DNA of 64,000 nt from Gemmatimonadota bacterium (GCA_026387915.1 JAPLKS010000013.1:62001-126000); one strand, 5' to 3'; counted from the stretch's first letter, positions 8,814-49,853 are shown. Translations and numbers: made by a program. Notes: generated by a model not told the origin, from the letters alone.

Positions 8814-8910
8814 GACGACCAATCGGTAAAAAAAGCACAGGAGCAAGCAAGCGCGGTTTTCCACACGGCAGAGCGACCGGAGCGCTTTGTGAGACTGGAG
8901 AAAACTCCGC

Positions 8911-12301: not shown

Positions 12302-12313
12302 GGTCGGTGGGGT

Positions 12314-16022: not shown

Positions 16023-17161
<1,139 letters not shown>

Positions 17162-17162
17162 C

Positions 17163-22380: not shown

Positions 22381-22382
22381 GG

Positions 22383-26608: not shown

Positions 26609-27468
26609 GGCCGCGTCGGCACTCCGCCAGCCTCCACCACCTGCAACAGCTCCTCGCAACGCTGGCCCCATGGATTGAACCTGTTGGCCGCGTGCCCTTT
26701 GCGCCACGTCTCTTTGGCGTCGTCCTTCTGGCCATTGAACCAATACGACCGCCCAAGCTCGTAGTACGCCTCAATGAGATTGGGGCCGAGCACGAGCGTC
26801 TTCAAGAAGAAATTCTCGGCGTCTTCGTACATCTCACGCTCGAGGTACACGAGGCCCAAGTAGAAGTGCGCATAGAGCGACGCCTTTTTGTCGTTGTCGA
26901 GCCGAATGGCTTTCGACAAATGCTCGATCGCCTCGCCGAAGATGTGCTTCTTGAAACAGATATAGCCCACGTTGATGCGCGCCAGCGCATTCATCGGCTC
27001 CTTCATGAGCACGACCTGAAAGCTCATCATAGCGTCGTCGAGTTTTTCGTTGAGCATCTGCGCCCAACCGAGGAGGGCGGTGCTCTGCGCATCCCCAGGG
27101 GAGAGTTCGAGTGCTCGCTGCAGCGCGGCCTCGGCGCCGTCATAGTCACCAATCGACAGCAGACTCCACCCTTTTTCTGCGAACGTGGACGCACCCAAAT
27201 GATCGGCGTGCACCACCGGGCGCTCGCCGGCGAACTGCGGTGCCATCGACGCCTTAGCCGCGCCTTCCCCCGCTTTCCATTTGTCCACGAGTTGCTTGAC
27301 GTCTTCCTTGAGCGCGGTCAGCTCCGAGGCTTGCTGCTCGGCCATGCGAAACAACGCAATGATCTCGGCCTTTACCGCCGCGCGTTCGGCGTCGGCCAAT
27401 CCGGCGTCGAGCCGACGTTCGAGTTCGGTGTACTGAGCGCGCAGTACGCGCAGCGTTTCGTCAGACAT
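26605..27468 (-). CDS. Coiled-coil TPR protein of the chemosensory operon
   Basis: The 287-residue protein begins with a helical, probably coiled-coil region (about 1-80, MSDETLRVLRAQYTELERRL onward, with KEDVKQLVDKWKAGEG). At least four TPR repeats follow (for example FAEKGWSLLSIGDYDGAEAALQ, LARINVGYICFKKHIFGEAI and EAYYELGRSYWFNGQKDDAKE). There is no signal peptide, so it is cytoplasmic. The ATG at 27468 overlaps the cheW stop by eight bases; the longer frame is a shadow of cheW. It is likely a protein-protein scaffold linked to the chemosensory array. Confidence 0.75.
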   Translation of the reverse strand: MSDETLRVLRAQYTELERRLDAGLADAERAAVKAEIIALFRMAEQQASELTALKEDVKQLVDKWKAGEGAAKASMAPQFAGERPVVHADHLGASTFAEKGWSLLSIGDYDGAEAALQRALELSPGDAQSTALLGWAQMLNEKLDDAMMSFQVVLMKEPMNALARINVGYICFKKHIFGEAIEHLSKAIRLDNDKKASLYAHFYLGLVYLEREMYEDAENFFLKTLVLGPNLIEAYYELGRSYWFNGQKDDAKETWRKGHAANRFNPWGQRCEELLQVVEAGGVPTRP

Positions 27469-27970
27469 GGTCCGTGGCTCCAGCAACTGCCTGTTCGAGT
27501 ACCAATCGTTCGCGCGAGGTGAGCAGATGCGCCACGTCGAGCACCACCAGTGTGTCTTCGCCGTCTTTGCCACGGCGCACCAGCGCTTTGAGATATGGCT
27601 TGGCGAGTCCGCGGAACAATGCCGGCGGCGGCACCAGCTGTTCCACCGGCACCACAATCACTTCATCCACCGCATCCACGATGGCGCCAATCCAGTCGCT
27701 GCCCGCGCTCATCACGAGGATGCGCGCACCCACACGTGACGGCGCCGGCGCGAGTTCAAAGCGATTGCGCAGGTCAATCACCGGCACCACGCGGCCGCTG
27801 TAATCAATGACCCCCTCGAGCCAACTCGGCACATTGGGAATCGGACGCGGCGCGGTAAACCGCAACACGCGTTCCACCGCGACGATGTCGGCCGCAAACC
27901 GATCCTCGCCCACTCGGAACGTGACGAGTTGCAGGCGTTCGCCGCTCGCGGCGGGGGTGGAGCCGGTCAT
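27461..27970 (-). CDS. cheW: CheW-type coupling protein (first copy)
   Basis: CheW couples receptors to CheA. The 169-residue protein has the SH3-like CheW fold: LQLVTFRVGEDRFAADIVAVERVLRF (about 13-38), PNVPSWLEGVIDYSGRVVPVIDLRNRF (about 44-70) and a second half with ILVMSAGSDWIGAIVDAVDEVIVV (about 80-104). The CheW consensus of a Gly before VIDLR is present. The ATG at 27970 makes an ATGA overlap with the second cheW copy upstream. The longer frame at the 5' side is a shadow. Confidence 0.9.
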   Translation of the reverse strand: MTGSTPAASGERLQLVTFRVGEDRFAADIVAVERVLRFTAPRPIPNVPSWLEGVIDYSGRVVPVIDLRNRFELAPAPSRVGARILVMSAGSDWIGAIVDAVDEVIVVPVEQLVPPPALFRGLAKPYLKALVRRGKDGEDTLVVLDVAHLLTSRERLVLEQAVAGATDHV

Positions 27971-28437
27971 GCCATGTTCTCCTCTCGCGGCGGCGCGATC
28001 CCGGCAGTTCTGCTGAGCAGCGCGTCTACCCGCACCAAGTTCACTAATCCGCCATCCGCACGAGCGCCAATGCACACGCCCGCGAGGACGCCTTCGGCGT
28101 CCGCCCCAGCCGGCACGGGCCGGAGCGTGCGCACGTCGAGCACGGCGAGATCATCCACATCATCGACCATTAGCACCGTGCGTGCGTCACCCGCGCGCAG
28201 GACGAGCGCGGTGCCTCCCACCCGCCCCACGGCCAGTCCAAACGCCCACGCGCCGTCGAACGCGCTCAGTGTGCGTTCCCGGTGCCGCAGTTGGCCGGCC
28301 ACGCCCAGCGGAGCGCTCGGCACCCATTCGAGCGACGGCGCATCGATCACCTCTTCGACGTCGGCGACCGCGAACGCAAAGCGTTCATCCCCTACGCGCG
28401 CCACCACGTGCAGCTCCTCGAGCGTAGCGCGGGTCAT
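27967..28437 (-). CDS. CheW-like protein, divergent (second copy)
   Basis: This 156-residue protein has a CheW-like layout: HVVARVGDERFAFAVADVEEVIDA (about 10-33), then APLGVAGQLRHRERTLSAFDGAWAFGL in place of the usual GxxxRGxxxPVIDLR region, then ALVLRAGDARTVLMVDDVDDLAVLDV. The central strand is weakly conserved, so it may couple a different partner or act as an adaptor rather than a canonical CheW. It overlaps cheB upstream and cheW downstream by four bases each, so it is translated with both. Confidence 0.75.
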   Translation of the reverse strand: MTRATLEELHVVARVGDERFAFAVADVEEVIDAPSLEWVPSAPLGVAGQLRHRERTLSAFDGAWAFGLAVGRVGGTALVLRAGDARTVLMVDDVDDLAVLDVRTLRPVPAGADAEGVLAGVCIGARADGGLVNLVRVDALLSRTAGIAPPREENMA

Positions 28438-29516
28438 GGGCGGTGCTCCACAGGCCGATGCCGCGCGAGGAGCAGCACGGCGGCGCCCGCCACTTCACTG
28501 AGTGGCGCCACACGATCAGCGCCCGCCGTTTCGAGCGCGGCGAGAGGCATGCCGTAAATAGTGGACGTCTCTCGATCCTGCACCACAGCGCCTCCACCGG
28601 CGGCGCGCACCGCGGCGAGCCCCGCGCTGCCGTCGCGCCCCATCCCCGTCAGGACCACGCCAACACAGTGGGCACCGAATACCGCCGCTGCCGACTCGAA
28701 CAGCGGGTCTGCCGCAGGCTTGACGCCCCACACGGCCGGTCCGTCGTGCAACGCGGCCCGCGGGCCTCCGTGCGTCGCCACCACCGTGCAGTGCCGCCCG
28801 CCTGGCGCGATATACACATGGCCCGGCCGCAGCAGTTCGCCATCCACCACTTCGCTCACGTCAAGTACAGACAGCGCGTCGAGGCGCTCCGCGAGTCCGG
28901 CGGTAAATCCGCGCGGCATGTGCTGCACCACGAGCACGACGGCGTCGAGTGACGCTGGCAACAGCGGAATCACCTCCGCGAGTGCGCGGGGGCCTCCGGT
29001 GGATGCCGCAATCACGAGCGCGGTGTGAGCGCCTCCGCTGGCATCCGCACCGCGCTTGGATACGAACACCGGTCGCGCGAGCATAGGCACGCCGCGGAGA
29101 TTCACCACCGCCGCCGCTAAGAGCGCCTGATGCAGACGTTCCTCGATCTCTGTCACCTGCCGCACACCGGCGGCCAGCGGCTTCCGAACGAAGTCCACCG
29201 CACCGAGTTCGAGCGCCCGCAGTGTAGCACTCACCTGCCCCACGGTGTCCGCGCCACTCAGCATGACCACCGCGCGCGGCGATTCGCTCATGATGTAGCC
29301 GAGCACCGCGAGTCCGTCGAGACCGGGCATCTCGATGTCGAGCGTGACGATGTCCGGATCGAGGGCATGCACCTGACGCAGCGCGTCCTCACCATCCACG
29401 GCGGTACCAATGACCGTGAACTGCGCAAACCGGCCGATCACCTCGCTGATGACGGTGCGCATGAGCGCGCTGTCGTCCACCACGAGCACGGTGCGATGCG
29501 GGCGCTCAGAGGACAT
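28434..29516 (-). CDS. cheB: Chemoreceptor methylesterase/deamidase CheB
   Basis: CheB demethylates receptor glutamates and is activated by phosphorylation. The 360-residue protein has a receiver domain (phosphoacceptor D60, acidic D14 and D15, K112-type KP) and a methylesterase domain with catalytic S172 (AASTGGP), H199 (QHMPRGF) and D295 (GMGRDG). All key residues are present. It overlaps cheD by eleven bases. Its usual substrate, an MCP, is not encoded in this window. Confidence 0.96.
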   Translation of the reverse strand: MSSERPHRTVLVVDDSALMRTVISEVIGRFAQFTVIGTAVDGEDALRQVHALDPDIVTLDIEMPGLDGLAVLGYIMSESPRAVVMLSGADTVGQVSATLRALELGAVDFVRKPLAAGVRQVTEIEERLHQALLAAAVVNLRGVPMLARPVFVSKRGADASGGAHTALVIAASTGGPRALAEVIPLLPASLDAVVLVVQHMPRGFTAGLAERLDALSVLDVSEVVDGELLRPGHVYIAPGGRHCTVVATHGGPRAALHDGPAVWGVKPAADPLFESAAAVFGAHCVGVVLTGMGRDGSAGLAAVRAAGGGAVVQDRETSTIYGMPLAALETAGADRVAPLSEVAGAAVLLLARHRPVEHRP

Positions 29517-29985
29517 GCGCTCCTCCCCGCACCGTCCGCACCGTCATCGCCCCAGTGGCCACGTCAAAGCGCACGGTGCGTCCGGACTCTCCGCCCACAT
29601 CTTCCGCGGCGATTGGCACATCGGCGGCCGCCAGTGCAGCCCGCGCGGCTTCGACGTTGCGCGTGCCCATGCCGTTCGCGCGGCCACCGAGCAGATCCCC
29701 AAAAATCCGCGCGCCACCGGCGAGCTTCGCCACAAATGGTCCGCGCGCGCCGAGGGCGCGCATCTCGGTCAGCAACAGTGGCACGGCCGTGGACGCATAC
29801 TTGGCTTGATTGTCGGACGAACGGCCGACCAGCATGTCGGGTAACAACACATGCGCCAAGCCACCGACCTTCGCCCGCGCATCGTGCACGGCGATCGCCA
29901 CGCACGAACCCAGGCCGACCGTCACGAGCAGATCGTCGCCGGAGGCCACCGCGTGATGCGCAATGCGCACGAGCTGTTCCATCAT
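29506..29985 (-). CDS. cheD: Chemoreceptor glutamine deamidase CheD
   Basis: CheD deamidates receptor glutamines and can bind CheC. The 159-residue protein has the catalytic Cys28 in VGLGSCVAI and His45 in GGLAHVLLPD, the two-residue core of the fold, then KLAGGARIFGD and ARFTKNIG-type GRANGMGTRNVEAAR. Length is normal. It overlaps cheR by four bases and cheB by eleven. Its presence with cheC suggests a CheC-CheD adaptation loop. The start could be either of two adjacent Met codons. Confidence 0.93.
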   Translation of the reverse strand: MMEQLVRIAHHAVASGDDLLVTVGLGSCVAIAVHDARAKVGGLAHVLLPDMLVGRSSDNQAKYASTAVPLLLTEMRALGARGPFVAKLAGGARIFGDLLGGRANGMGTRNVEAARAALAAADVPIAAEDVGGESGRTVRFDVATGAMTVRTVRGGAHVL

Positions 29986-30797
29986 CGACGCCGGAATACC
30001 CGCTGCCGCTGATCCACCACATCGAACAGCGTGCGCGACGGGCCGAGGAGCGTTTCTACTTTGCCCAGCACCAGCACGCCGCCCGGCGCGAGGGCATCGT
30101 GCACCCGCTGCAGCAGCGCCGTTTGCGCGTCACGGTCAAAGTAGATGACCACATTGCGACAGGTGACCAGATGCAGGGGTGCGGCCGGCGGCGCTTCTTG
30201 CAGCAGATCATGCCGCGTAAACGTGAGCCACTCGCGCACCGCCGGCACCGCACTGCCGGTCGCGTCGAAGTACCGTTCTCGCAACGCCGCGGGCATTTCC
30301 GCGAAGGCCGACTCGGCGTACCGACCAACGCGTGCCGCCTCAAGGGAGGCGCGATCGATATCCGTCGCGACAATGCGCACCCGCGAGCGCCGGTGGAGTT
30401 CACCGCGTGCAGTCAGCAGGTCATGCCAGAGCACCGCCAGCGTGTACGCTTCTTCACCCGACGAGCACCCCGCCACCCAGCAGTGCAACTCCGGCGCCGG
30501 CGAGTCCCACAAGGCAGGCAGGAGCTGCTCGCGCAAGTACAACCACGTTTCCGCGTTGCGGAAGAGTTTTGTGACGTTGATCGTCAGCGCGTCAATCAGT
30601 TGATCGTACTCCGCGGGGTCGTCGTCGAGGACATGGCTATAGGCCGCATAATCCTCGGTGCCTCGCGCACGCATCCGCACCGCAATGCGCCGGCGGAGGC
30701 AAGTGCCCTTATAGCTCGCCGTGCCAAACCCGCGATCGCGCGCGATTTTGTCGGTGAGCGCGAGAAAGGCTTCCGCGTCGGCGAGCGGTTCGCTCAC
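29982..30797 (-). CDS. cheR: Chemoreceptor methyltransferase CheR
   Basis: CheR methylates receptor glutamates with S-adenosylmethionine. The 271-residue protein has a helical N-terminal domain, with LRRRIAVRMRARGTEDYAAYSHVL (about 35-58), NVTKLFRNAETWLYL (near 75-90), the SAM loop WVAGCSSGEEAYTLAVLW (near 105-122) and VTCRNVVIYFD (near 218-228). These match the CheR family throughout. It sits between a PATAN-TPR protein and cheD, overlapping both by four bases. Confidence 0.95.
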   Translation of the reverse strand: MSEPLADAEAFLALTDKIARDRGFGTASYKGTCLRRRIAVRMRARGTEDYAAYSHVLDDDPAEYDQLIDALTINVTKLFRNAETWLYLREQLLPALWDSPAPELHCWVAGCSSGEEAYTLAVLWHDLLTARGELHRRSRVRIVATDIDRASLEAARVGRYAESAFAEMPAALRERYFDATGSAVPAVREWLTFTRHDLLQEAPPAAPLHLVTCRNVVIYFDRDAQTALLQRVHDALAPGGVLVLGKVETLLGPSRTLFDVVDQRQRVFRRR

Positions 30798-32413
30798 GAC
30801 TGCGCCTTAGCCGCCGCGAGGTTCTGGCGGATAATCGCGTTGTCGGGGTCGAGCACAAGCGCACGTTCCCAGCAGCGAATCGCATCCGCTCGTTCGTTGC
30901 GACGTAAGCGAATGTTGCCCAGCTTGAACCACGCGTCGGGTCCGATCTGCTCATTGAACTTCACGGCGCGCTGGAAGGCGTCGTACGCTTCATCAAAGCG
31001 CCCGCTCCGGTACAGAGCGTCACCAATATTTTTGTGAAGCTGCGCGATACCAGGCTCTTCGATCGCGCCACGCTCCGCGGCCGCAAGCGCCTCTGGGTAC
31101 ATCCGCTGCCGGTCCAACGCGACCGACAGATTGTTGTACAGCACCGCCGCATGTGGGTAGCGCTCCGTGCCCTCTCGCAACAGCGCCACGGCATCGTCCG
31201 CACGCTGACTGAGCCACGCCTCGAGCGCGGCGTAGTGGTACCACGCCGCCGTGGGTCTGCCATCGCCGAGCAGTTCCCGCGCGTGCGCAAAGGAGGCGCG
31301 GGCAGTGCCCAGATCACCCTCGCGCAACGCGAGCACGCCGAACGACGTGTGCACGCGCGGATCGCCCTCGGCGCCGCGCGCCACGGCTTCTTGTAACGCC
31401 GCGCGCGCCTTGGCGTACTCTCCACGCCGTTCGTGCGCGTACGCCAGGTTGTGATACACCCACGGTGAGGCGCCGCGCGAATGCGTGGCGGCTTCGAAAT
31501 CGGCGATCGCGTCGTCCCAGCGCCCGAGTCGCAGATGGACGAGCCCGACAATAAACCGCGCCTGCAGATCGCCGGGGCGCAGCTCCACCACGCGACGGAA
31601 CTCGCGCTCCGCTTCGTCGAGCATGCCGGTTTTGAAAAATGCGATGCCGAGGTTGCGATGCTCCTCCACGCGCGTATCGGGCGCCGTGACCTCGGAGGTT
31701 TTGGTTTTTCCGACGCGATGCAGAAAACCCGCCGTCGCAAGACCGTAGAGCGCCTTCCCCACATCGAATTCAATAAGCCCCGACTCTTCAACGATCGCCG
31801 CCACATCCAAACGTCCGTCAATCAGCGGCAGAATCAACTCCTGTTCCTTGGAGAGATTGCCGCGATTTTCTTCGAGCTTCCGCCGGTCGAGATCAAACAC
31901 AATATCGAAGGACGGAATCTTCTTCTCGATCAGCCCCCACTCATCCACCCGTCGCGCACCCTCGAGCAACAGCGACTCGGGATTGATCGACACGAGAAAG
32001 TCCTGCTCTTCTGGGCTGAGGTCGGCCTCAAAGTTGAACGTTCCCTGCGACCAGGTGAACAGGAAGTAGACGGCCTCTTCGATTTGAATGCGGATCTGCC
32101 CGTGCAATCCCTCGCGCGAAATGATGCCGAGCGACACCAGCACATCCCCGAGCCGCTTGTCGCGCTGTTTCGACTGCGCGTCAATCGCCTGCTGGAGTTG
32201 TCCCCCGGTAATCACTCCGCTCTTGAGCAGGATATCGCCGAGCCGGTCGCGCCGATTCACGATCGCGGCGTAACAAATCTTTCCCTTGTCGAAATAGATC
32301 GAGCCAAAGTTGTTGCGATGCGTCACCGACAAGCAGCCGGTTTTCTTGCCCATCGAGAGGAGCTGCAGGACGTCGGGGAGACTGGCTTCCTTGAGACTGC
32401 CGCGAATGGCCAT
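30794..32413 (-). CDS. PATAN (DUF4388) and TPR protein
   Basis: This 539-residue protein starts with a PATAN-type DUF4388 domain (about 1-110, GSLKEASLPDVLQLLSMGKKTG onward, with LGDILLKSGVITGGQLQQAI). Then comes a winged-helix-like middle region (about 180-260, IDGRLDVAAIVEESGLIEFDVGKALYGLATAGFLHRV) and at least seven TPR units from about 270 to the end. PATAN domains occur in two-component and polarity proteins in Myxobacteria and related lineages. Its ATG overlaps the stop of the tandem AAA+ gene as TAATG. A scaffold bringing other operon proteins together is likely. Confidence 0.8.
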   Translation of the reverse strand: MAIRGSLKEASLPDVLQLLSMGKKTGCLSVTHRNNFGSIYFDKGKICYAAIVNRRDRLGDILLKSGVITGGQLQQAIDAQSKQRDKRLGDVLVSLGIISREGLHGQIRIQIEEAVYFLFTWSQGTFNFEADLSPEEQDFLVSINPESLLLEGARRVDEWGLIEKKIPSFDIVFDLDRRKLEENRGNLSKEQELILPLIDGRLDVAAIVEESGLIEFDVGKALYGLATAGFLHRVGKTKTSEVTAPDTRVEEHRNLGIAFFKTGMLDEAEREFRRVVELRPGDLQARFIVGLVHLRLGRWDDAIADFEAATHSRGASPWVYHNLAYAHERRGEYAKARAALQEAVARGAEGDPRVHTSFGVLALREGDLGTARASFAHARELLGDGRPTAAWYHYAALEAWLSQRADDAVALLREGTERYPHAAVLYNNLSVALDRQRMYPEALAAAERGAIEEPGIAQLHKNIGDALYRSGRFDEAYDAFQRAVKFNEQIGPDAWFKLGNIRLRRNERADAIRCWERALVLDPDNAIIRQNLAAAKAQS

Positions 32414-34302
32414 TAGCGGAGATCCTCAACGATGCGCGCCGAGACGTCGGGCCATTCCCAGACGAGCTTTTCGGCATCGAACATCAACGAACGACTCGAG
32501 CGCGTCGCATTGCCCACGGAGTGGACGCCAGCAAAGGGCGTGGCAAGCCCCAACTCCGCGCGCGCCAACGCCGCATTCACCGGAACGCCAGTGGCGTCCG
32601 CGGCCACACCGAGCCGATTCACAACGCCAATGATTTCACGCACACTCTGCACCGGCTGCTCGGCCAACACGGCGAGCAGCGCGGCATCGGCATTGCGCCC
32701 GGCATCCGCCAAATACTTGGCAAAGAGTCGTTCACGCAACGAACGGTCCGGCGCCTGAATGGGCACCACTAGTCCGCCCTCAAAGCGCGAGCGTAAGCGC
32801 GCTTCGAGATCGGGAATCTCCGCCGGCGGACGATCGCTCGTCATCACGATCTGCTTGCCAGCCGCGACGATGGTGTTGAAGAGCAAGAAGAGTTCTTCCT
32901 GCGTCCGCTCCTTCCCCGCCACAAACTGCACATCATCAATGATCAAGGCGTCGGCGTTGCGGTAGCGAATGCGCCAGCGCTCCACCGATCCACCCTGAAT
33001 GGCCGCAATGAGTTCATCCACGAACTTCTGCGCGTGCACGTACGCCACGACTTTCGGCGCCGCACCTGTTCCGGTGAGCGTATTGCCGATGGCGTTGAGC
33101 AGATGCGTTTTGCCCACTCCGCTCGGGCCATAGAACACGAGCGGGTTGTATTTCGTGCCGGGTTCGGCGATCACCGCATCGGCGGCGTGCACCGCGAGCT
33201 GGTTGGAGGTGCCCACCTCAAATGCGGAGCGCACGAACGACGGACTCGGCCCCTCGGGCGGCGTGGCGCCGGCGAGCGCGCGTTCGACCAGATCCTCTGC
33301 CTCCGCCATGCGTTCGGGATCGCGAAAGACGGCCTCGCCGCCGAGGGCCGGATCCACGCCGGTGGCCGTCAGTTCAAGATTCCGCAGATGCTCCACGGCC
33401 GCTTCGAATGTCTTCAGCAGCCCGTCAACATCCGGCTCCTTCGGGAGCGAGAGCGCCCGCTCAATAACCCGCGTGCGGTAGCCTTCCCCACGCCAATGCT
33501 GCACCGCAGCTGACAATCGCGACTGCCATGACTCCAGCTGCTGCGCTACATCCTTCGACACATCGGAGAGGAAACTTTCAAACTCGCCAAGGGACCGACC
33601 CTCGGGCTCTGCCGACGTCGACGCAGGGGCACTATCGGCGCCGATCGCCTGATGCGCCACGAGCCGGTTGAGCGCGCCCTGCAGTTCACGAACGCTCGAA
33701 AAACTGAACGCTGCCAACTCCTCGAGCACGCCCTCCTTGAACGAGAGCTGGCGCTCGTCGCAGTTGGCGCGGAGAATCGCCATGCGCGTCTCAAACTCCG
33801 GCGCGGTCACATCCGCAATCAGGCCGCCACTCAGGCGACTGACGAGCCGCGCGTCCACATCGGGGATCTCCGACGGCGGACGGTCACTCGTCAGCACAAT
33901 CTGACGGCCCGCGCGTTGCATGCGCTCGAACAACTTCAGCAACTCGGCCTGCACCTCCCGATGGCCGGTCAGGAACTGCACGTCGTCAATCAGCAGCAAT
34001 CCCACCCGCTCGTAGCGGCTCGAGAACGCGTCGAGGTGCCCCGCGGACGTCGCGGCAAGGAGTTGCTCCACAAAGTCCAGCAGCGACAGGTACTCAACAT
34101 CAAGACCCGGGTGCAGCGCTTCACTCAGATGACCGATCGCCGACAACACGTGGGTCTTCCCCAGCCCCGTGCCGCCGTAAATGAAGAGCGGGTTGTACAC
34201 GGCACCCGGCGACTCCGCCACCGCACGCGCGGCCGCGACGGCAAGACGGTTGCCCGCCCCCACCACGAGGTTGTCAAACCGGAGCCGCGAATCAACACGC
34301 AC
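32413..34302 (-). CDS. Tandem DnaA-type AAA+ ATPase without DNA-binding domain
   Basis: About 629 residues hold two DnaA domain-III AAA+ modules. The first (about 5-220) starts RFDNLVVGAGNRLAVAAARAV and has Walker A GGTGLGKTH, Walker B LIDDVQFL, sensor TSDRPP, box VII Arg SRLSGGL and sensor-2 VRELQGALNRL. The second (about 355-570) has FEVGTSNQLAV, GPSGVGKTH, IIDDVQFV, SRFEGGL and SVREIIGVVNRL. A helical linker of roughly 140 residues separates them. DnaA domain IV (helix-turn-helix) is missing after both. I prefer the GTG at 34302; a GTG at 34320 also works. It lies between mglA and the PATAN-TPR gene. Confidence 0.88.
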   Translation of the reverse strand: MRVDSRLRFDNLVVGAGNRLAVAAARAVAESPGAVYNPLFIYGGTGLGKTHVLSAIGHLSEALHPGLDVEYLSLLDFVEQLLAATSAGHLDAFSSRYERVGLLLIDDVQFLTGHREVQAELLKLFERMQRAGRQIVLTSDRPPSEIPDVDARLVSRLSGGLIADVTAPEFETRMAILRANCDERQLSFKEGVLEELAAFSFSSVRELQGALNRLVAHQAIGADSAPASTSAEPEGRSLGEFESFLSDVSKDVAQQLESWQSRLSAAVQHWRGEGYRTRVIERALSLPKEPDVDGLLKTFEAAVEHLRNLELTATGVDPALGGEAVFRDPERMAEAEDLVERALAGATPPEGPSPSFVRSAFEVGTSNQLAVHAADAVIAEPGTKYNPLVFYGPSGVGKTHLLNAIGNTLTGTGAAPKVVAYVHAQKFVDELIAAIQGGSVERWRIRYRNADALIIDDVQFVAGKERTQEELFLLFNTIVAAGKQIVMTSDRPPAEIPDLEARLRSRFEGGLVVPIQAPDRSLRERLFAKYLADAGRNADAALLAVLAEQPVQSVREIIGVVNRLGVAADATGVPVNAALARAELGLATPFAGVHSVGNATRSSRSLMFDAEKLVWEWPDVSARIVEDLR

Positions 34303-34303
34303 G

Positions 34304-34909
34304 CTAGAAGCGCCCCCCACCCGCCGCGCTCAACTTGCGCAGCACCTGTTCCGACACGGCACGCAACGTTTCGAATACGCCGGGGCCATGCAACGCATCC
34401 GCCCCAAAACTCGGCACGCCACGAAAGTTCAGCTGGTCATCGAGCTCGGGCACCGTCAACAGCACCTCTGGCGGCAGATCCTGTTTGTTGTACTGCAGCA
34501 CCAGCGGCATCGTGCGCGCATCAATGCCGTATTCCGCCAGATTCGCGTGCATGTCCTGCATCGACTCAATATTCTCATCCATTTGCCGCGCCTGGCTGTC
34601 GGCCACAAACACTACTCCGTCCGCGCCTTGCAGCACGAGCTTGCGGGTGGTCTGGTAATACACTTGGCCGGGCACTGTATACAATTGAAACCGCGTTGAA
34701 AAACCGGAAATGGTGCCGAGGTCGAGCGGCAGAAAATCAAAGAACAGCGTACGATCGGTCTGCGTGGCCAGGGACACCATCTGTCCTTTGCGGTCAGCCG
34801 GTACCTGCCCATAAATGTAGTGCAGATTCGTCGTCTTTCCGGACCTTCCAGGGCCGTAGTAGACGATTTTGCACGTGATTTCGCGCGACGCGTAGTTGAC
34901 CAGGCTCAC
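34304..34909 (-). CDS. mglA: MglA-type small GTPase
   Basis: MglA switches between GTP and GDP states at the cell pole and, in Myxococcus, directs gliding and type IV pili. The 201-residue protein is close to MglA throughout: SLVNYASREITCKIVYYGPGR, P-loop GPGRSGKTT (19-27), DRTLFFDFLPLDLG, LYTVPGQ (77-82), VFVADSQ and NKQD (141-144). Switch regions look intact. It is flanked by roadblock genes upstream and the tandem AAA+ gene downstream, and roadblock/LC7 proteins such as MglB are its GTPase-activating partners. Confidence 0.95.
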   Translation of the reverse strand: MSLVNYASREITCKIVYYGPGRSGKTTNLHYIYGQVPADRKGQMVSLATQTDRTLFFDFLPLDLGTISGFSTRFQLYTVPGQVYYQTTRKLVLQGADGVVFVADSQARQMDENIESMQDMHANLAEYGIDARTMPLVLQYNKQDLPPEVLLTVPELDDQLNFRGVPSFGADALHGPGVFETLRAVSEQVLRKLSAAGGGRF

Positions 34910-34916
34910 GGTTGCC

Positions 34917-35387
34917 TCATGCTCGGCCGAACATCACGGCAAGGTTGCGATTGAGCTCGCTTTCAAAGTTCTCAGCGAGTGCGGCGGGCTCGGCGTCGGC
35001 GCTCGGCGCTACAGCCGCCACGTCACGGCAAAACTGCTGGAAGAACAACTGCACCAGTCCCAGCGAACTTTCTTCGTCGAACACCGCGAACAGAATGAGC
35101 GGAGTCGCCTGCGTGAGAACCGTCGCGCGAAAGAACTGCCGAGTGGTCCCCACATAATGCACACCGCTGAACGGCTGGCCTTCCAACTGACGGCCGAGCT
35201 CGGCCGACGACGCATGCGCCGCCGCGGCGAGAGCGCACGCGGTCATCACGTCGACCGAACGCGCAAAGCCAAACTGCCCGAGCACCTGCCCTGTCGGGTG
35301 CAACAGCACGCCCAGCTCAAGCCGCGCGTCGGACACCAGCTGACGCAACGGCGTCTCTACCCAGGTGGCGGCAACGGAGAGTTTCAT
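34917..35387 (-). CDS. Roadblock/LC7-like protein next to mglA
   Basis: This 156-residue protein is compact, with alternating strands and helices (LELGVLLHPTGQVLGQFGFARS, then LAAAAHASSAELGRQLEGQPF, then HYVGTTRQFFRATVLTQATPLILFAVFDEESSLGLVQLFFQQF). The pattern fits the roadblock/LC7 fold of MglB-type partners. Identification is by pattern and by its position directly upstream of mglA (seven-base gap), and it is weaker than for the 115-residue neighbour. The ATG at 35387 makes an ATGA overlap with that gene; the longer frame is a shadow. It is an MglB candidate. Confidence 0.65.
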   Translation of the reverse strand: MKLSVAATWVETPLRQLVSDARLELGVLLHPTGQVLGQFGFARSVDVMTACALAAAAHASSAELGRQLEGQPFSGVHYVGTTRQFFRATVLTQATPLILFAVFDEESSLGLVQLFFQQFCRDVAAVAPSADAEPAALAENFESELNRNLAVMFGRA

Positions 35388-35731
35388 GCGAACAGCTCCA
35401 GCGCACGCAACATCTCCACACGCACCAAGCCCACATTCACCATCGGCTCTGCAATCACGACGAGCACGAGTTCGTTGCGCCCCACGGCGCACACGCGACC
35501 CGCGTCGGCCGTGAGTTCAAAGAAGGCCGCCTCACCAAATCCTGCTGCCAACGCCGACCGGCGTGCTTTGCGATACAACGATGCCGTCAGCGCGGCGAAC
35601 GCGGTGCCGTTGAGTCCAATCTGAAGATTGGCTTCCACGATCATCCCGTCGCGCTCGCCCACCACAAAGCACCCCGACACCCCGCGGTGACGGATGAGGG
35701 CGCTGAGCACGCCGGCGAATGGACTGCTCAC
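35384..35731 (-). CDS. Roadblock/LC7 domain protein
   Basis: This 115-residue protein is a single roadblock/LC7 domain: FAGVLSALIRHRGVSGCFVVGERDGMIVEANL, then AFAALTASLYRKARRSALAAGFGEAAFFELTADAGRVCAVG, then NELVLVVIAEPMVNVGLVRVEM. The GV.G..VV..DG.IV signature of the family is clear. Roadblock dimers regulate or bind MglA-type GTPases. It overlaps the TPR-roadblock gene upstream and the next LC7-like gene downstream by four bases each. Confidence 0.85.
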   Translation of the reverse strand: MSSPFAGVLSALIRHRGVSGCFVVGERDGMIVEANLQIGLNGTAFAALTASLYRKARRSALAAGFGEAAFFELTADAGRVCAVGRNELVLVVIAEPMVNVGLVRVEMLRALELFA

Positions 35732-36621
35732 GTCCCCGTCTCCAGCCAGCGTCCCACGCGCTCAAGCGAACGCTCGAGGAGACGTCGCACGTAGCCCAAG
35801 GGCACGCTGCGCGGCGATGCCACGAGCAACACGCCATCCACACTCGGCGCCATCGCGACACTGGCCGCCTCCGACTCAAAGACGATCTGGTGCCACGCGC
35901 CAAGTCCAAGGTGCCGTACCGCGCGCGCGGCCTCGTCGCTGATGCCGGACAACTGCGCGCCTAAATCTGCCCCGAGATCGCGGCCGTCGGCGGTCACATA
36001 CTGCCCCGCCACCACGAACCCGTCGCGATCAATCAGCAGCACGGTCTGCGGTTGGTCCCCGATCACCGCGTCGAAGAGGGCGCGGGCGTCAGAGACTTGC
36101 GCGCTCGCCCTGACTGTCGGCGCGGTCTCCCACGCGCCATCCGGTAGGGCCGACGCGTTGTCGCCCGACGCATCGCTCGCCGCATTGCCCGTCGTATCCG
36201 CTGTCGCCTCGCCCGCCGCGATGGTCGCGCGCACGGTCGCGAGCGCCGCCGCGAGCGAGTGATCGCTCGGATCGGCGGCAAGCGCGGCGGCGAGCCAGAG
36301 CGCCGCATGTTCGAATTCGCCCTGTTGGAAGCAGAGGAACCCAAGGCCCTTCTGCGCCGCAGCATCGCTCGGCGAGAGGTGCAACACAAACTCCCACTCG
36401 GCGCGCGCGCGCGCGAAGTCGCCCATATCAATGGCAATGCGCGCCAGAAGGTCGTGTGCATCCGGACGCTGTTGATGCCGCTCAGCCCCGCGCGTCGCCA
36501 CCTTGAGGGCTACGTCCAACTGTCCCCGACGGCGCAACGTCTCCCCTAACTGCAGGAAGACCGTGCTCGACGGGTCAGCCGCCAGCGCGTCGCTCAGCGC
36601 GCGGATGTCGTCAGACGCCAT
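35728..36621 (-). CDS. TPR protein with C-terminal roadblock/LC7 domain
   Basis: This 297-residue protein has TPR repeats in about 1-140 (STVFLQLGETLRRRGQLDVALK, HDLLARIAIDMGDFARAR and AAQKGLGFLCFQQGEFEHAA). A low-complexity Ala/Thr/Ser/Asp linker (about 145-175) follows. From about 185 to 297 is a roadblock/LC7 domain (ALFDAVIGDQPQTVLLIDRD, then VVAGQYV). It could place an MglA regulator on a TPR scaffold. It overlaps the PATAN gene by eleven bases and the next roadblock gene by four. Confidence 0.8.
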   Translation of the reverse strand: MASDDIRALSDALAADPSSTVFLQLGETLRRRGQLDVALKVATRGAERHQQRPDAHDLLARIAIDMGDFARARAEWEFVLHLSPSDAAAQKGLGFLCFQQGEFEHAALWLAAALAADPSDHSLAAALATVRATIAAGEATADTTGNAASDASGDNASALPDGAWETAPTVRASAQVSDARALFDAVIGDQPQTVLLIDRDGFVVAGQYVTADGRDLGADLGAQLSGISDEAARAVRHLGLGAWHQIVFESEAASVAMAPSVDGVLLVASPRSVPLGYVRRLLERSLERVGRWLETGT

Positions 36622-37660
36622 GCCACTTCTCCAGCATTGCCTGTAGACGCGCGGCGGCGTTCATCCCGTCACGAATCTCGTCGGCCTGTTGGTGCAACGG
36701 ACGTTCAGCCAGCACGCGCGACCACGCGTCCGCGGCACCACGGAAATCTGCCTGACGGAGCAACGAAAAGCCCAGCGTCAGGTCGTCGGCTGGCGACCGT
36801 TGACCGGCCGCAGAAACCAGTGGCGTCACCGCCGCAGTGACCACAGGCGTCACGGCCGCAGTCACCACAGGCGTCACAGCCGCAGTGACCACAGGCGTCA
36901 TCAGTGGAGTCTGCACGCGCTCCACCGGCTGCACCGATGCCCCGCTCGCCATCCGCAGTTCCACGACGCCGGTGGTCACGAGCCCGTACACCACCTTGGC
37001 CACTTCAAAGTCGCTGCGGCTCAATTCCGCAGCAATCGACCGGAGATCGTGCTCACCGTCAATCCGCGTGAGCACCTCCCACTCGCTCGGCAACAGGTCG
37101 AGCTGAGGTCCACCGTCATCCGCGACCGGCGCAAACGTCGGCACCGCAGACAGACTCGGCACACGATCCGAAATGCGCGACCATTCATCAATCCGGCGCG
37201 CTCCTTCCATCATCAACGACTCGGTGCCGATCTCCACCGTCGAGCCGGCGCCCACCGGCCCTTCTTCAAAGCGGAAGAACCCTTCCCCCCACGACAACAG
37301 CTCAAACACCACCGCCTCAATCTGCAATCGCATCTGCCGCTCGAGTTCTTTGCTCGACAGCGCGCCAGACTCCACGAGAATCTCACCGAGTCGTCGGTCG
37401 TCACCGGCATCCGCCTGCGCCAACCGGGCATTTTCGATGTCGGCCTTCGTCACCTTGCCCGCGCGCAGCAGCAGTTCGCCAATGCGGTGCGGATTACTGC
37501 GAATCGTGGCGCCCACCACACGACCACGCGCGAAGAGGACCGTCCCTTCGTTGTCGCGCAGCTCCGAGGTCACGGCCAACGTTCCCGTCTTCCGGCTCAG
37601 ATCGAGCAACTGAAAGACATCGTGTACGCCAAGTTCCTTGAGCGGTCCTTCGATGGCCAT
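36611..37660 (-). CDS. PATAN (DUF4388) protein with repeat-rich linker
   Basis: This 349-residue protein starts with a PATAN domain (EGPLKELGVHDVFQLLDLSRKTG, about 4-26, extending to about 105). A winged-helix-like middle (LPSEWEVLTRIDGEHDLRSI, then DFEVAKVVYGLVTTGVVELRM) ends near residue 245. A linker of three 8-residue TAAVTPVV repeats follows, and the end (about 295-349) is one TPR-like helical pair. It resembles the 539-residue PATAN protein downstream but with far fewer TPRs. The start is three bases from the stop of the 904-residue TPR gene. Confidence 0.8.
   Translation of the reverse strand: MAIEGPLKELGVHDVFQLLDLSRKTGTLAVTSELRDNEGTVLFARGRVVGATIRSNPHRIGELLLRAGKVTKADIENARLAQADAGDDRRLGEILVESGALSSKELERQMRLQIEAVVFELLSWGEGFFRFEEGPVGAGSTVEIGTESLMMEGARRIDEWSRISDRVPSLSAVPTFAPVADDGGPQLDLLPSEWEVLTRIDGEHDLRSIAAELSRSDFEVAKVVYGLVTTGVVELRMASGASVQPVERVQTPLMTPVVTAAVTPVVTAAVTPVVTAAVTPLVSAAGQRSPADDLTLGFSLLRQADFRGAADAWSRVLAERPLHQQADEIRDGMNAAARLQAMLEKWHGV
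36822..36900. repeat. 24-bp tandem repeat inside the PATAN gene
   Basis: Three copies of a 24-base unit (36822-36845, 36846-36869, 36870-36893) plus seven bases of a fourth. The unit on the plus strand is ggcgtcaccgccgcagtgac followed by caca, with one to three differences between copies. In frame on the minus strand it encodes TPVVTAAV repeats in the PATAN-TPR linker. Repeat number could vary between strains. Confidence 0.9.
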
Positions 37661-37663
37661 GGC

Positions 37664-40378
37664 TCAGCCCTCCCGCGCGCGATCGCCGAACACGGTGAGC
37701 AGATCACCGGCCGTACGCGCGTCGCGGCGTGCACGACGGGCGAACTCGCCGGCGGGCTCCAGATCGCTCACGCGCGTCCACTGCGCGACGGCCTCGCGGT
37801 ATCGTTTTTGTTCCGCGAGCAACACGCCGTCGTAATAGATCGCTCCCACGTGATCGTGGTCGAACGTCAAGATTCGATGGAACGCCTTCGCCGCGTCCTG
37901 CGGACGCCCAATCTCAATCAACGTCTCGCCAAGCGAGAGCAGCCCATCGAAGTTGTACGGATCACGCACGAGCAGTTCGACCAGTAACGTGAGCGCATCG
38001 CGCGGACGACCCGCCAGGCGCCGCAGCGCGGACAGCTCGAGGATCGCTTCGGTATACGTCGGCACCGCATCGAGGGCCGCGAGCAGATGCAACTCGGCCT
38101 CATCCCACGCCTGCCGTTGCGAGAGCAGACGGGCGAGATCAAAGCGCACGGCCGCAAAGTCGCCGTCCAGTTCGAGGGCGTGACGATACGCCGCAATCGC
38201 TCCCTCAATGTCACCGAGCGATCGCGTGATATTGCCCATCCAGCGCAACACGTCAGCCCGAGCCGGTGCTTGCCGACGTGCCTGCTCGAGCACCTCGAGC
38301 GCCGCCGCGGGATCACCCGCCTCAAACCGGCAGCTCGCGGCAAGGAGCATCGCGTCCACATCCGTTGGGGTCGTGGCAAGCACCAAGTCGGCCGCATCGC
38401 GCGCTTCGGCACCCCGCCCCAGCATCAGCAAGGCTTGCGCCTCACCGCGGAGCGCTCGCCCGTGCTGCGGATCGGACTGCCGCGCCGCGCGATACCGCTC
38501 GAGCGCGTCACCAAAGGCGCCTTGGCGGCACAGAATGTCGCCGAGCAACGCATTGCCGTCGGCCGGCGCACTACCGCGCGCGAGCGCGCGGCTCGTTTCC
38601 GCGCGCGCACGATCGAGCATGCCCTTGGTGAGATAGTCCGCCGCCATCGCGTAGGGATCCGCTTCCGCTGGCGTTTCGAGCGCGCTCACCGATTCCTGTG
38701 CCGGCTTGAGCTCTTTGAATAGCGAATCCAGGAGCTGCGGGTCAAAGGCGAAGGTCTCGACGTCGCCACTCAGCCGCTGCTCGCCGCCCAAGTCAGGCAC
38801 CACTTGGAAGTCGGCGTCTTCGTACTCGAGGTCAATCGCCAACTGAAATTTCTGCGGCACGTAATAGGAGTCGAGCTCAAGGGCACGCTTGGTCTCCCGT
38901 AGCGCGCCTTCGAAGTCTCCGAGGTTCGAAAGTACAAAGCTCAGATTGTAGTGCGCTTCCGCGAGGTCCGGATTGGCCTGAATCGACCGCGCGAACGCAT
39001 TCCGTGCATCCTCATACTTTCGCAGTTCCGACAACACTAACCCAACGCCGTTCCACGCCGTCGGCTGCTCGGGCTCGCTGTTCAACACCTGACGATACGC
39101 CTCGAGCGCCAGCTGATACTTCCGACCCTTCGTGAGGAGGAGCGCGAGATTGAGACGCGCCTTGGTAAACGAGGAACTCACGTCGAGCGCGGCGCGGAAC
39201 GCGTCTACCGAGTCGTCGTGATTGCCGTCGTGATACCGAGCTACCGCCAGGTTATTGAGCGCGAGCGCGTAGCGAGGATCCGCCACGAGTGCCTGCTGAT
39301 AGCTCGCCGCCGCGTCGGCATATCGCCCCGCCTGATGCAGCGCGACCCCGCGCTCGTTCCAGAGCTTGGGACTGTCGGTCTGCTCCGCGACCAACGCGTC
39401 GTATAGCACGAGGGCCGCCGCTGGGTCTTTGCGCAACAGGCAGAGTTCGGCGAGCGCTTGCCGTACCAGCGCCTGATCTTCGCCGCGCTCAAGGGCGAGC
39501 GTGTATTCCCGCTCCGCCTCTACCAGATAGCCCTTCTGCCGATACGCGAGCCCGAGCGAGTAATGCGCCAGCCGCTCCCCTTCGGCCACCTGCATCAGCC
39601 GCTGCGTCTTCCGCTCCGAATGCCCCGGCAGCAGTTCTTCGTATTTCTGCGCGTTGTACTGGTCGATCGACAAGTTCGCCTGCGCGCGCGACAAGGTCGG
39701 ATTGAGCTGAATCGCCCGCTTACTCGCCGCGCGCGCTTCGTCCGGCCGGCCGAGTTCACCATACACAAACCCGAGCAGGAAGAGCGCGTCCGGATTGTCC
39801 GGATTCAGCTCAATCGCACGCTGCAACTCCACCAGCGCGTCCTCGGCCCGCCCCTGATTGTACAGGACTTCGCCGAGGTAGAAGTGGGTCAATGAACTCG
39901 CGGGATCAAGCCGCAACGCCTCCTCGAGCCAGGCCATCGCGTTGCCCAGACTGCCATTCGCCTTTTCGGCCAACGCCAGTTGCACGATCGCCGCGAGGTC
40001 ACCGGGGTTATGGTGCAGCAACGCCGTAAATTCCACGATCGCCTCATCGGCGCGACCGAGGAGCGCACACGCACGCCCCAGCTCCCAGCGCGCGTCGCGG
40101 TCATCCACACGCTGCCGCAAGCGCTCGCGCAGTTCGCCCACTCGGCGGTCGTAGAACCCGGTGTTGAAGTACGCCACCTCGAGGTTGCGCTGCGCGACCT
40201 GCATTTTAGCGTCAAGTTCGAGCGCCTTCGTGAACGCGGCGACCGCCTCTTCGTGCAACCCTTTGTTGAAGTACAACACGCCCAAATTGTTGTGCGCACC
40301 GGCATCGGACGGATCAATGCGGCGCGCGAAGCTTAGCAGCGTCGCGCGATCGCGTTCAGATCCATGCGTCTCCGCCAT
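37664..40378 (-). CDS. Large TPR scaffold protein
   Basis: This protein of about 904 residues is almost entirely TPR repeats (roughly 20 units). Canonical ones include AHNNLGVLYFNKGLHEEAVAAF (near 32-53), LTHFYLGEVLYNQGRAEDALVEL and WNERGVALHQAGRYADAAASY. A non-repeat acidic stretch (about 510-570, DADFQVVPDLGG onward) splits two TPR blocks. There is no signal peptide. It is likely the main scaffold of the operon. I chose the ATG at 40378; a TTG one codon earlier is also possible. It starts ten bases after the cheC stop. Confidence 0.85.
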   Translation of the reverse strand: MAETHGSERDRATLLSFARRIDPSDAGAHNNLGVLYFNKGLHEEAVAAFTKALELDAKMQVAQRNLEVAYFNTGFYDRRVGELRERLRQRVDDRDARWELGRACALLGRADEAIVEFTALLHHNPGDLAAIVQLALAEKANGSLGNAMAWLEEALRLDPASSLTHFYLGEVLYNQGRAEDALVELQRAIELNPDNPDALFLLGFVYGELGRPDEARAASKRAIQLNPTLSRAQANLSIDQYNAQKYEELLPGHSERKTQRLMQVAEGERLAHYSLGLAYRQKGYLVEAEREYTLALERGEDQALVRQALAELCLLRKDPAAALVLYDALVAEQTDSPKLWNERGVALHQAGRYADAAASYQQALVADPRYALALNNLAVARYHDGNHDDSVDAFRAALDVSSSFTKARLNLALLLTKGRKYQLALEAYRQVLNSEPEQPTAWNGVGLVLSELRKYEDARNAFARSIQANPDLAEAHYNLSFVLSNLGDFEGALRETKRALELDSYYVPQKFQLAIDLEYEDADFQVVPDLGGEQRLSGDVETFAFDPQLLDSLFKELKPAQESVSALETPAEADPYAMAADYLTKGMLDRARAETSRALARGSAPADGNALLGDILCRQGAFGDALERYRAARQSDPQHGRALRGEAQALLMLGRGAEARDAADLVLATTPTDVDAMLLAASCRFEAGDPAAALEVLEQARRQAPARADVLRWMGNITRSLGDIEGAIAAYRHALELDGDFAAVRFDLARLLSQRQAWDEAELHLLAALDAVPTYTEAILELSALRRLAGRPRDALTLLVELLVRDPYNFDGLLSLGETLIEIGRPQDAAKAFHRILTFDHDHVGAIYYDGVLLAEQKRYREAVAQWTRVSDLEPAGEFARRARRDARTAGDLLTVFGDRAREG

Positions 40379-40388
40379 CAACGCGCCG

Positions 40389-41006
40389 TCAGTCGACGCG
40401 GATCGCGCGCAAAATGGCGTGCAAGCTCGGCACGTCCGGCATCAGCAAAAAGAAGCCGCGGAGCCGCTCGCCATTGTCCGCCAACTGGAACTCACTCTCC
40501 ACACAGAACACCGCGTCGTGATCGCGCGCGACTTCCATGAAGCTCGTGTTGAGCACAGCGTCGCTCATGTCCACCGCCAACGACGGCGGAGAGGGCAACA
40601 GAATCATCCCGAGGAACTCGCTCAGGGCATTGAGATACGCCGCGCTGAGAATGTTTCCGGCTTCCTTGATCGCCGATTGCTCAATCACGCCGAGCTCCGT
40701 CACCGGCTTGTTCATCATGAGGCCCGCCACGCGCAGCGCGGTCTGCCGCGAAAACACGAGCATCGTGAGCCCCGTGAGATCGCCCAGCATACGCATCAAC
40801 ACCGCCGCGACCGGCTCCTCCCCCGAATCAATATGATTGGGCACGTCGGACAGCGGGGTGATGGTCAGTCGCGGCACGCTGATCATGATGCGCTGCGTCG
40901 TCATTTGCGATAACGCCGTCGCGGCGTGTCCCGCGCCGATGTTTGCGACTTCGCGCAGCGCGTCAAGCTGAAGCGGTGAGAGTTGCCGGATGTCGTCCAC
41001 CGTCAC
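40389..41006 (-). CDS. cheC: CheC-type CheY-phosphatase
   Basis: CheC dephosphorylates CheY~P and binds CheD. The 205-residue protein has two phosphatase-type helices: REVANIGAGHAATAL (E19, N22) and IKEAGNILSAAYLNAL (E115, N118). Both carry the ExxN pair, so both sites may be active. Central and C-terminal segments match CheC. It overlaps cheA by four bases. Combined with cheD downstream, it suggests the CheC/CheD/CheY feedback known in Bacillus. Confidence 0.92.
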   Translation of the reverse strand: MTVDDIRQLSPLQLDALREVANIGAGHAATALSQMTTQRIMISVPRLTITPLSDVPNHIDSGEEPVAAVLMRMLGDLTGLTMLVFSRQTALRVAGLMMNKPVTELGVIEQSAIKEAGNILSAAYLNALSEFLGMILLPSPPSLAVDMSDAVLNTSFMEVARDHDAVFCVESEFQLADNGERLRGFFLLMPDVPSLHAILRAIRVD

Positions 41007-42958
41007 GTCCCCTGAAAGAGGCTACCTACGTCTACGATCAGCGCGGGTGCGCCGTCGGCGAGAATCGTCGCGCCACTGAACAACGCCAGTCCATCCCGCG
41101 GGGCGTCGAACTGCTTGACCACGATCTCTTGCTGTCCCAGCAACTCATCCACGACGAGCCCCGACCGACGCTCTCCGCGCTCAATCACCACAATCTCGCG
41201 CGCATCACCGGGCTCGCCCTCCTGACGCACGACCTGCCGTAAATCGAGCAGCGGCAGCACTTCGTCGCGCAGCACCAGCACATCGCGCCCCTTCACCTGC
41301 TGCACCGCTCCGCCGCCGTATTCCAGCGTCTCGCGCACATGGGTGAGCGGCAACGCATAACACTCCGTTCCCGAACGGGCGAGCAACGCGCGCACAATCG
41401 CCAGCGTAATCGGCAACCGCACGGTGATCGTGGTGCCCGCGCCGGGCGCGCTCCGCAAATCCACCGACCCACCCAGCGCACGCACCTTGGTCTGCACCGC
41501 GTCCACCCCCACACCACGCCCCGAAAGCTCTGACACCTGCTCCGCCGTTGAGAACCCGGGGTGTGCAATACACCGAAGCAATTGCTCGTCGTCGAGTTCA
41601 CGCACCGTCGCGTCCACCAGGCCGGTCGCCTTCGCGCGCGCGAGCACCTTGGCGCGATCAATCCCGCGGCCGTCGTCGCTCACACGAATCAGCACCGACG
41701 CACGATCGCGTGCGGCGCTCAACACCAACCGACCCGCCGCTGGTTTTCCCGCGGCGACCCGCACATCCGGTGTTTCGATGCCATGGTCCAGTGCGTTGCG
41801 CAGCAAGTGCACCACCGGCTCACCAATCTCGTCGAGCAACGAACGATCGAGTTCAATGTCCTTGCCTTCGATCACAAAATTCACGTCTTTGCCGAGTTGA
41901 CGCGCCGCATCGCGCACGAGACGCGGAAAACGGTCGAACACCTGCCACACGGGCACCATGCGCGCCGTGATGATTTCCGTCTGCAGTTCCGCGATTAACC
42001 GCGACGCCTGTTGCAGCGTGTCATCCAACGCCGCGTCGCCGATCCCCGCCGACAACTGCAGCAGGCGGCCGCGCGCGATCATGAGTTCGCCAATCAGATT
42101 CATCAACGCGTCGAGACGCGACAGATCCATGCGCACAAAGCGCGTCGCGCGAGAGGCCGCGCGCACCGCTGCGGCTTCGCCCTCGCGGACTACTTCGATC
42201 GTGGCGCGCGTACTGCGACGCACCTGCCCACTCGCATCCACCTCCACCTGCGCCACCTCGCCCGCGCTACGCACCGCGGCCTCGATCTCGGCCACCGTCG
42301 CCGTCGTCACGAGGCGCAACGCAAACGCTTGTGGCGTGGTCGCCTCGCGCAGCACCTCTTCTGCGGGCGACGTCGCCATGACGTCGCCGATCGCACGCAA
42401 TTTTTCGACCGCCAAATAGGCGCGCACGCCCGGGAGGATCGCGTCCGCACTCTGCCGCACGCGCACGATCACCCCAGGGCCGTCGAGCGGATCGGCCGCG
42501 GCGACCTCCACCAAGGCGCCGATTCCCGCCGTCGCATCCAACGGCACGGCGCGAAACTCACCGGTGCCCGTTCCGCCCGCCACATCGTGGAGCCGCTGCA
42601 ACGCCGCGGTCATCGCCGGCGTGGCCTGCGAGCTGTCGGACGCAGAGTCGAGTCCACTCTCAAAGGCATCGGCCGCCGCAAAAAGCGCATCCATCAGCGC
42701 CGGCGAGTGCGCCTGCTCCCCACGCCGCACGCGGTCGAGCAGCGACTCCAGTTCGTGCGCGAACTCGGCGACCGCATGGTAGCCCATCGTCGCGCACATC
42801 CCTTTGACGGTGTGCACCGCGCGAAACACCGCGCTCAGGGAATCCTGATCGTCGGCGCCGCCCTGCTCCAACAGGAGCAGACTGCGATTCATGGTGGCAA
42901 GCTGCTCTCGGCTCTCGGTCCGAAAGAGCTCCGCGTACCGTGCCGGGTCGAGGCTCAT
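41003..42958 (-). CDS. cheA: Chemosensory histidine kinase CheA
   Basis: CheA is the array kinase that phosphorylates CheY and CheB. The 651-residue protein has an Hpt domain (phosphorylated H49 in AVHTVKGMCATMGY), a variable middle region (about 115-270), P3 dimerisation (VRMDLSRLDALMNLIGELMIARG), an ATPase domain with HLLRNALDHGIE (N box), DDGRGID and GRGVGVDAV, and a C-terminal CheW-like P5 domain. I chose the ATG at 42958; the longer frame extends only into the gap before cheY. The middle region has no obvious P2 receiver-binding match. It overlaps cheC by four bases. Confidence 0.95.
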   Translation of the reverse strand: MSLDPARYAELFRTESREQLATMNRSLLLLEQGGADDQDSLSAVFRAVHTVKGMCATMGYHAVAEFAHELESLLDRVRRGEQAHSPALMDALFAAADAFESGLDSASDSSQATPAMTAALQRLHDVAGGTGTGEFRAVPLDATAGIGALVEVAAADPLDGPGVIVRVRQSADAILPGVRAYLAVEKLRAIGDVMATSPAEEVLREATTPQAFALRLVTTATVAEIEAAVRSAGEVAQVEVDASGQVRRSTRATIEVVREGEAAAVRAASRATRFVRMDLSRLDALMNLIGELMIARGRLLQLSAGIGDAALDDTLQQASRLIAELQTEIITARMVPVWQVFDRFPRLVRDAARQLGKDVNFVIEGKDIELDRSLLDEIGEPVVHLLRNALDHGIETPDVRVAAGKPAAGRLVLSAARDRASVLIRVSDDGRGIDRAKVLARAKATGLVDATVRELDDEQLLRCIAHPGFSTAEQVSELSGRGVGVDAVQTKVRALGGSVDLRSAPGAGTTITVRLPITLAIVRALLARSGTECYALPLTHVRETLEYGGGAVQQVKGRDVLVLRDEVLPLLDLRQVVRQEGEPGDAREIVVIERGERRSGLVVDELLGQQEIVVKQFDAPRDGLALFSGATILADGAPALIVDVGSLFQGT

Positions 42959-43001
42959 CGAATCCCGCCAGTGCGCGCCGGCCCGGGGGGGCGGCGCACG
43001 A

Positions 43002-45722: not shown

Positions 45723-45724
45723 CG

Positions 45725-49845: not shown

Positions 49846-49853
49846 GGCTGTTG

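Follow-up and report, generated by a model that had tools for sequence, protein, structure and literature searches.

Domain III of DnaA is known from replication and from direct regulators of replication. The closest described gene modules to the locus analysed here are the MglA/Roadblock and PATAN modules (PMC4316618) and the M. xanthus MglA-SgmX-Frz system, which share with it an MglA-like GTPase, Roadblock, PATAN and TPR proteins and chemosensory genes. That mglA genes lie near PATAN genes was already known (Wuichet and Sogaard-Andersen 2014, PMC4316618). In Myxococcus, MglA-GTP promotes pilus formation via a TPR effector (PMC7519303). Type IV pili are also where PATAN regulators act in cyanobacteria, and the proposed binding partner of PixE is the pilus motor PilB1 (PMC7690835). 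The locus differs from these polarity modules in that a DnaA-derived AAA+ protein, here called X, is a constant member of the operon. DnaA domain III is found here duplicated, without a DNA-binding domain, and in a chemosensory/MglA/PATAN operon across the phylum. No published description of the X family was found, and searches of the literature on DnaA with MglA, on Gemmatimonas or on tandem forms returned nothing relevant. The window, meaning the whole stretch of DNA analysed, comprises 64,000 nt of Gemmatimonadota bacterium GCA_026387915.1 (JAPLKS010000013.1:62001-126000).

Domain architecture of X

The gene for X and its parts are as follows.

32413-34302, minus strand: X, tandem DnaA-domain-III protein, 629 aa
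33631-34290, minus strand: AAA1, DnaA domain III module, X residues 5-224 (profile, fold, residue comparison)
33274-33585, minus strand: linker helical bundle, X residues 240-343, with EFxSFLSD motif and FRDPERxxEAE segment
32545-33246, minus strand: AAA2, DnaA domain III module, X residues 353-586, intact in the window (profile, fold, residue comparison)
32416-32490, minus strand: C-terminal tail motif EKxVWxWPDxxxRxxEExR, X residues 605-629

The coordinates 32413-34302 given by the first-pass annotation are right, and the gene sits on the minus strand. It starts with a GTG at 34302, 1 nt past the end of mglA, and terminates at 32413 with a stop codon that overlaps the start of the downstream D4388b gene in the sequence TAATG. 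The chain was also correctly described as holding two complete DnaA domain III modules, since every motif is present twice: Walker A (GGTGLGKT at residue 43 in AAA1, GPSGVGKT at 392 in AAA2), Walker B (LIDDVQF at 104, IIDDVQF at 454), the sensor motif TSDRPP (138 and 488), the box VII arginine (SRLSGG at 155, SRFEGG at 505) and sensor 2 (VREL at 204, VREI at 554). Two stretches are matched both by Pfam Bac_DnaA (whole-protein E = 9.6e-104) and by the NCBIfam DnaA model TIGR00362, and because the two module scores are summed, X reaches 497 bits against a DnaA equivalog cut-off of 343.9. For this reason automatic annotation is likely to misname X as a second replication initiator, which could mislead predictions of Gemmatimonadota origins. 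Membership of another AAA+ family was also checked by profile, and the modules came out as DnaA: the NCBIfam models for IstB, DnaI and DnaC all fell below cut-off, as did that for Hda (TIGR03420, 155.4 bits summed over the two modules, cut-off 194.8). In a predicted model with a mean pLDDT of 85.5, the modules superpose on DnaA structures with Z ~28-30 (~29-30 for 8bv3, 8btg and 2z4r), versus 17.6-20.7 on Hda. By profile, fold, tree and comparison with solved structures, the X modules are DnaA domain III. The pTM of 0.48 means that the model does not fix the placement of AAA1 relative to AAA2.

A helical linker joins the two modules as had been claimed, although its length is ~130 residues including a flexible stretch rather than ~140. 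After AAA2 the model passes through a low-confidence stretch to the conserved tail FDAEKLVWEWPDVSARIVEDLR, and the DNA pattern encoding this tail occurs once in the genome. Neither linker nor tail has a Pfam match. The chain begins where domain III begins, and Pfam returned neither an N-terminal match to domain I nor the domain IV helix-turn-helix (Bac_DnaA_C, PF08299), which bears out the first-pass statement that domain IV is missing from X. Nor is there room for a hidden domain IV nearby, because the downstream gene starts inside the X stop codon. Genome-wide there is a single copy of Bac_DnaA_C, and it belongs to the canonical dnaA, which lies apart from X on a different contig. X therefore resembles DnaA (TIGR00362/PF00308) in its DnaA-type AAA+ modules, with all catalytic motifs kept in the window protein. 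It departs from DnaA in carrying two modules per chain, in lacking domains I and IV, in a helical linker and W-P tail specific to its family, and in its location in a signalling operon.

Operon context and conserved gene order

The genes surrounding X are listed below.

27967-30797, minus strand: CheR, CheD, CheB, CheW
30794-32413, minus strand: D4388b, DUF4388(PATAN)-MshEN-winged helix-TPR protein (MshEN part predicted), constant neighbour of X
32084-32245, minus strand: predicted pair of MshEN-type c-di-GMP motifs, residues 57-110 of D4388b
34304-34909, minus strand: MglA-like small GTPase
34917-35387, minus strand: RB2, small Roadblock/MglB-like protein, assigned from position and weak similarity without a Pfam match
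35384-35731, minus strand: RB1, Roadblock/LC7 protein, weak Pfam match
35728-36621, minus strand: TPR-Roadblock protein
36611-37660, minus strand: D4388a, second DUF4388 protein, MshEN-like repeat by eye
37664-40381, minus strand: 905-aa TPR protein
40389-41006, minus strand: CheC
41003-43036, minus strand: CheA

X shares its operon with an MglA-like GTPase and with Roadblock genes, the matches to the latter being weak. Across dozens of loci the order is conserved as cheA, cheC, 905-aa TPR, DUF4388, TPR-Roadblock, Roadblock, Roadblock and mglA, followed by X, DUF4388-TPR (D4388b), cheR, cheD, cheB, cheW and a small TPR gene, so that the reported position of X beside mglA and PATAN can be restated as a slot between the two that is fixed across loci. 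X lies directly 5' of D4388b in dozens of loci, mostly with overlapping stop and start codons, and its tail sits directly 5' of the DUF4388 gene also where mglA is missing. Family f5 has the X-D4388b pair after divIVA and ileS, a placement shared with the window, but lacks the che and mgl genes there, and genus g18 keeps the pair without mglA in the cluster. Genus g31 has X beside a divergent MglA-like GTPase, and at loci L163-L165 an AAA-free X adjoins D4388b without an operon-type mglA. Among 80 sampled genomes, all 45 with the X linker also encode D4388b (Fisher 1.5e-14) and an MglA homologue (Fisher 1.5e-7), both values being uncorrected for shared ancestry. Because the short motifs of X and the adjacent D4388b are the constant elements, D4388b, rather than mglA, is the closest genetic partner of X.

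In the window the chemosensory/MglA operon (27461-43036) is placed between divIVA-ileS-lspA-rluD (43831-50447) and the dcw division cluster (7510-23342), which spans rsmH to ftsZ. This divIVA/dcw placement recurs in part in other families.

Distribution and variant forms of X

X is a conserved Gemmatimonadota family, with end-to-end matches in ~68 genomes of the phylum sample and 31-94% identity among relatives across the phylum. One scan of a genome collection, seeded with linker motifs and so reaching close relatives only, placed nearly all matches in Gemmatimonadota; one exception is a 3-kb contig labelled Planctomycetota, which carries an MglA 88% identical and looks mis-binned. The linker was found in 45/80 sampled genomes, and 8 of the 35 genomes missing it still carry D4388b, the gene downstream of X elsewhere. 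Canonical DnaA was present once per genome in 13/13 genomes checked. Many genomes with DnaA, six of the same genus among them, lack X, which makes a role as replication initiator very unlikely. This patchy presence, together with the signalling operon around mglA and PATAN, agrees with the earlier proposal that X serves signalling or assembly rather than replication.

Relatives in the slot range from tandem forms, whose AAA2 is intact or, in families f4 and f5, catalytically degenerate, to forms with one AAA module and finally to AAA-free ones. Families f6 and f9 and isolated f1 genomes combine one AAA1 with linker and tail, locus L161 has AAA and tail but no linker, and L138 has linker and tail but no AAA. 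The shortest form, micro-X (loci L140, L141 and L163-L165), is ~65-100 residues long and retains nothing but the EF..FL motif and the W-P tail, which are the most constant parts of X relatives. In the D4388b tree the AAA-free forms are nested among tandem ones and two changes are needed, which makes two losses of the AAA modules the likeliest history. All single modules placed in the module tree group with AAA1 (100/99), a tree that does not fix the order of events, gain or loss, for AAA2. These natural variants separate dispensable ATPase modules from constant, putative docking motifs. The parts of X are of known kinds; so far as the literature was searched, their combination and this reduction series are new.

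Residue conservation in the two modules

Residues were compared across 27 tandem relatives, 20 with AAA2 and 7 with degenerate AAA2. Every AAA1 (27/27) has the lysine of Walker A and the two aspartates of Walker B. In the degenerate AAA2 of f4 and f5 the functional ATP site is gone, as is the lid with sensor 2, and the box VII arginine is retained in 7/7. The simplest reading of which residues survive in each module would make AAA1 the ATPase module and AAA2 a neighbour that donates the arginine finger. A further difference concerns the position of E. coli DnaA R245, a single-strand DNA contact: its equivalent is glutamate in 21/27 AAA1 modules and arginine in 16/20 AAA2 and 7/7 degenerate AAA2 modules. 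The equivalent of K243, likewise an ssDNA contact of DnaA, is lysine in 15/20 AAA2 modules.

A predicted c-di-GMP receptor motif in D4388b

The DUF4388 domain of D4388b hosts an insertion of two 24-residue RLG...Q motifs with a spacing of 6 residues, which is the arrangement that defines the MshEN motif (Wang et al. 2016, PMC5013675). All 38 D4388b members scanned match the NCBIfam c-di-GMP motif model NF053729, the window protein scoring 50 bits against a cut-off of 38; residues 54-107 match V. cholerae MshE (5htl) at E 2.7e-8, and the D4388b model superposes on MshE over 59 residues with an rmsd of 2.0 and Z 7.0. Motif and fold thus agree on a predicted MshEN-type c-di-GMP receptor motif with putative binding. 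The known domain is N-terminal on a pilus/secretion ATPase, whereas that of D4388b is embedded in a PATAN-winged helix-TPR protein (PMC5013675).

In the micro-X clade (L140, L141, L163, L164 and L165) the MshEN segment of the adjacent D4388b is cleanly absent, and in the second AAA-free lineage, L138, D4388b keeps it. A coupling of AAA loss to MshEN loss is suggestive only, because it amounts to one evolutionary event and L138 retains the segment.

Both PATAN proteins of the operon (36611-37660 and 30794-32413) appear to bear MshEN-type motifs, and the motif may be the "alpha-helical insertion" described in PATAN. D4388b residues 160-236 (31706-31936) adopt a winged-helix fold, and the structures that match it best are those of GATOR1/SEA subunits, regulators of Rag GTPases. 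A kinship with Nprl2/GATOR1, though striking beside MglA/Roadblock, was set aside as probably a common fold.

Discussion

A central question is what a DnaA-derived protein does in a chemosensory operon. We hypothesize, with a probability of roughly 55%, that X is a nucleotide-controlled adaptor of D4388b inside the chemosensory/MglA polarity pathway. The W-P tail, together with the EF..FL/linker region, would dock on D4388b, and the AAA modules would bind ATP, with AAA1 catalytic and AAA2 giving at least the box VII arginine finger. ATP-dependent head-to-tail assembly of X would then cluster D4388b, plus MglA where present, at the site of action. The inputs would be c-di-GMP on the MshEN segment of D4388b, MglA-GTP and the chemosensory kinase; the X modules would assemble or switch with ATP and so gate the PATAN/TPR output, which, going by PATAN and MglA proteins elsewhere, would probably be polar type IV pilus activity. 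The genome encodes PilB- and PilT-type ATPases, and the pilus is proposed as the target by analogy, because PilT is nearly universal (77/80 genomes, with or without X alike) and does not discriminate.

This hypothesis draws on the X-D4388b order, conserved over dozens of loci with the usual stop/start overlap, on the coincidence of the linker with both D4388b and an MglA homologue, and on the f5 pair that stands alone. It draws also on the AAA-free forms, in which the two short motifs persist next to D4388b, on the intact AAA1 ATP sites and the surviving box VII arginines of degenerate AAA2, on the micro-X clade having also lost exactly the MshEN segment, and on the match of that segment to MshE. 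It is weakened in that the joint loss is a single event with L138 as a counterexample, in that AAA2 retains equivalents of K243 and R245 that an adaptor does not need, and in that the model leaves the two modules unplaced relative to each other. If the adaptor hypothesis is true, an ATP-controlled element has been added to Ras-like polarity signalling. More broadly, and only tentatively, the ATP-driven oligomerising core of DnaA may have been domesticated in Gemmatimonadota as a switchable polarity/pilus scaffold, in which AAA+ assembly would couple a Ras-like GTPase, a chemosensory array and c-di-GMP via PATAN, with AAA modules added or shed around two constant docking motifs.

One alternative is that X regulates the GTPase cycle of MglA in a GEF-, GAP- or unloading-like manner, its AAA modules acting on MglA or the Roadblock proteins. 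X does follow mglA directly in most families, none of the sampled genomes has the linker without also encoding an MglA homologue, and in g31 X stays with a divergent MglA-like GTPase; however, f5 and g18 keep the X-D4388b pair without mglA in the cluster, the AAA-free X of L163-L165 adjoins D4388b without an operon-type mglA, and D4388b is the more constant partner, so we regard this as rather doubtful. The artefact explanation, by which X is an annotation or assembly error or a decaying dnaA duplicate, has only the unusual architecture to speak for it and is already refuted by conservation: 31-94% identity across the phylum, a fixed operon slot and AAA1 ATP sites intact in every tandem relative checked.

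The first-pass annotation had also raised an Hda-like control of DnaA that would link movement state to the cell cycle. X resembles Hda/HdaA in being a DnaA-related AAA+ protein without domain IV, its arginine finger and ATP sites are intact, and its operon adjoins divIVA and the dcw cluster. Nevertheless X is tandem rather than single, its Hda profile score is below cut-off, its fold is far closer to DnaA than to Hda, and it keeps other gene company. A search of X for the sliding-clamp-binding peptide, which in Hda lies near the N terminus, gave no strict motif, relaxed matches falling in AAA helices. The gene follows the motility operon in its inheritance and is tied to che/PATAN genes, not dnaA or dnaN, its linker being missing in 35/80 genomes while canonical DnaA was found wherever checked. 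X is thus probably not Hda, and Hda-like control, or competition with DnaA in filaments, as a coupling of movement to the cell cycle is improbable. The proximity to divIVA/dcw is real, and a weaker, indirect link of X to cell division may exist. Binding of nucleic acid, with AAA2 gripping ssDNA or RNA or anchoring the complex on the nucleoid, would explain the basic residues at the R245 and K243 positions of AAA2, including the arginine of all seven degenerate modules. The glutamate of most AAA1 modules, the absence or degeneration of AAA2 in several families and the lack of domain IV argue against it, and we consider it quite improbable.

A further MglA-like GTPase, next to a protein with a weak Roadblock match, is encoded on another contig of this genome (locus L149, contig C4, 6298-7476). 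It lies beside recR-like and dnaX-like genes, is widespread in the class and is separate from the operon MglA.
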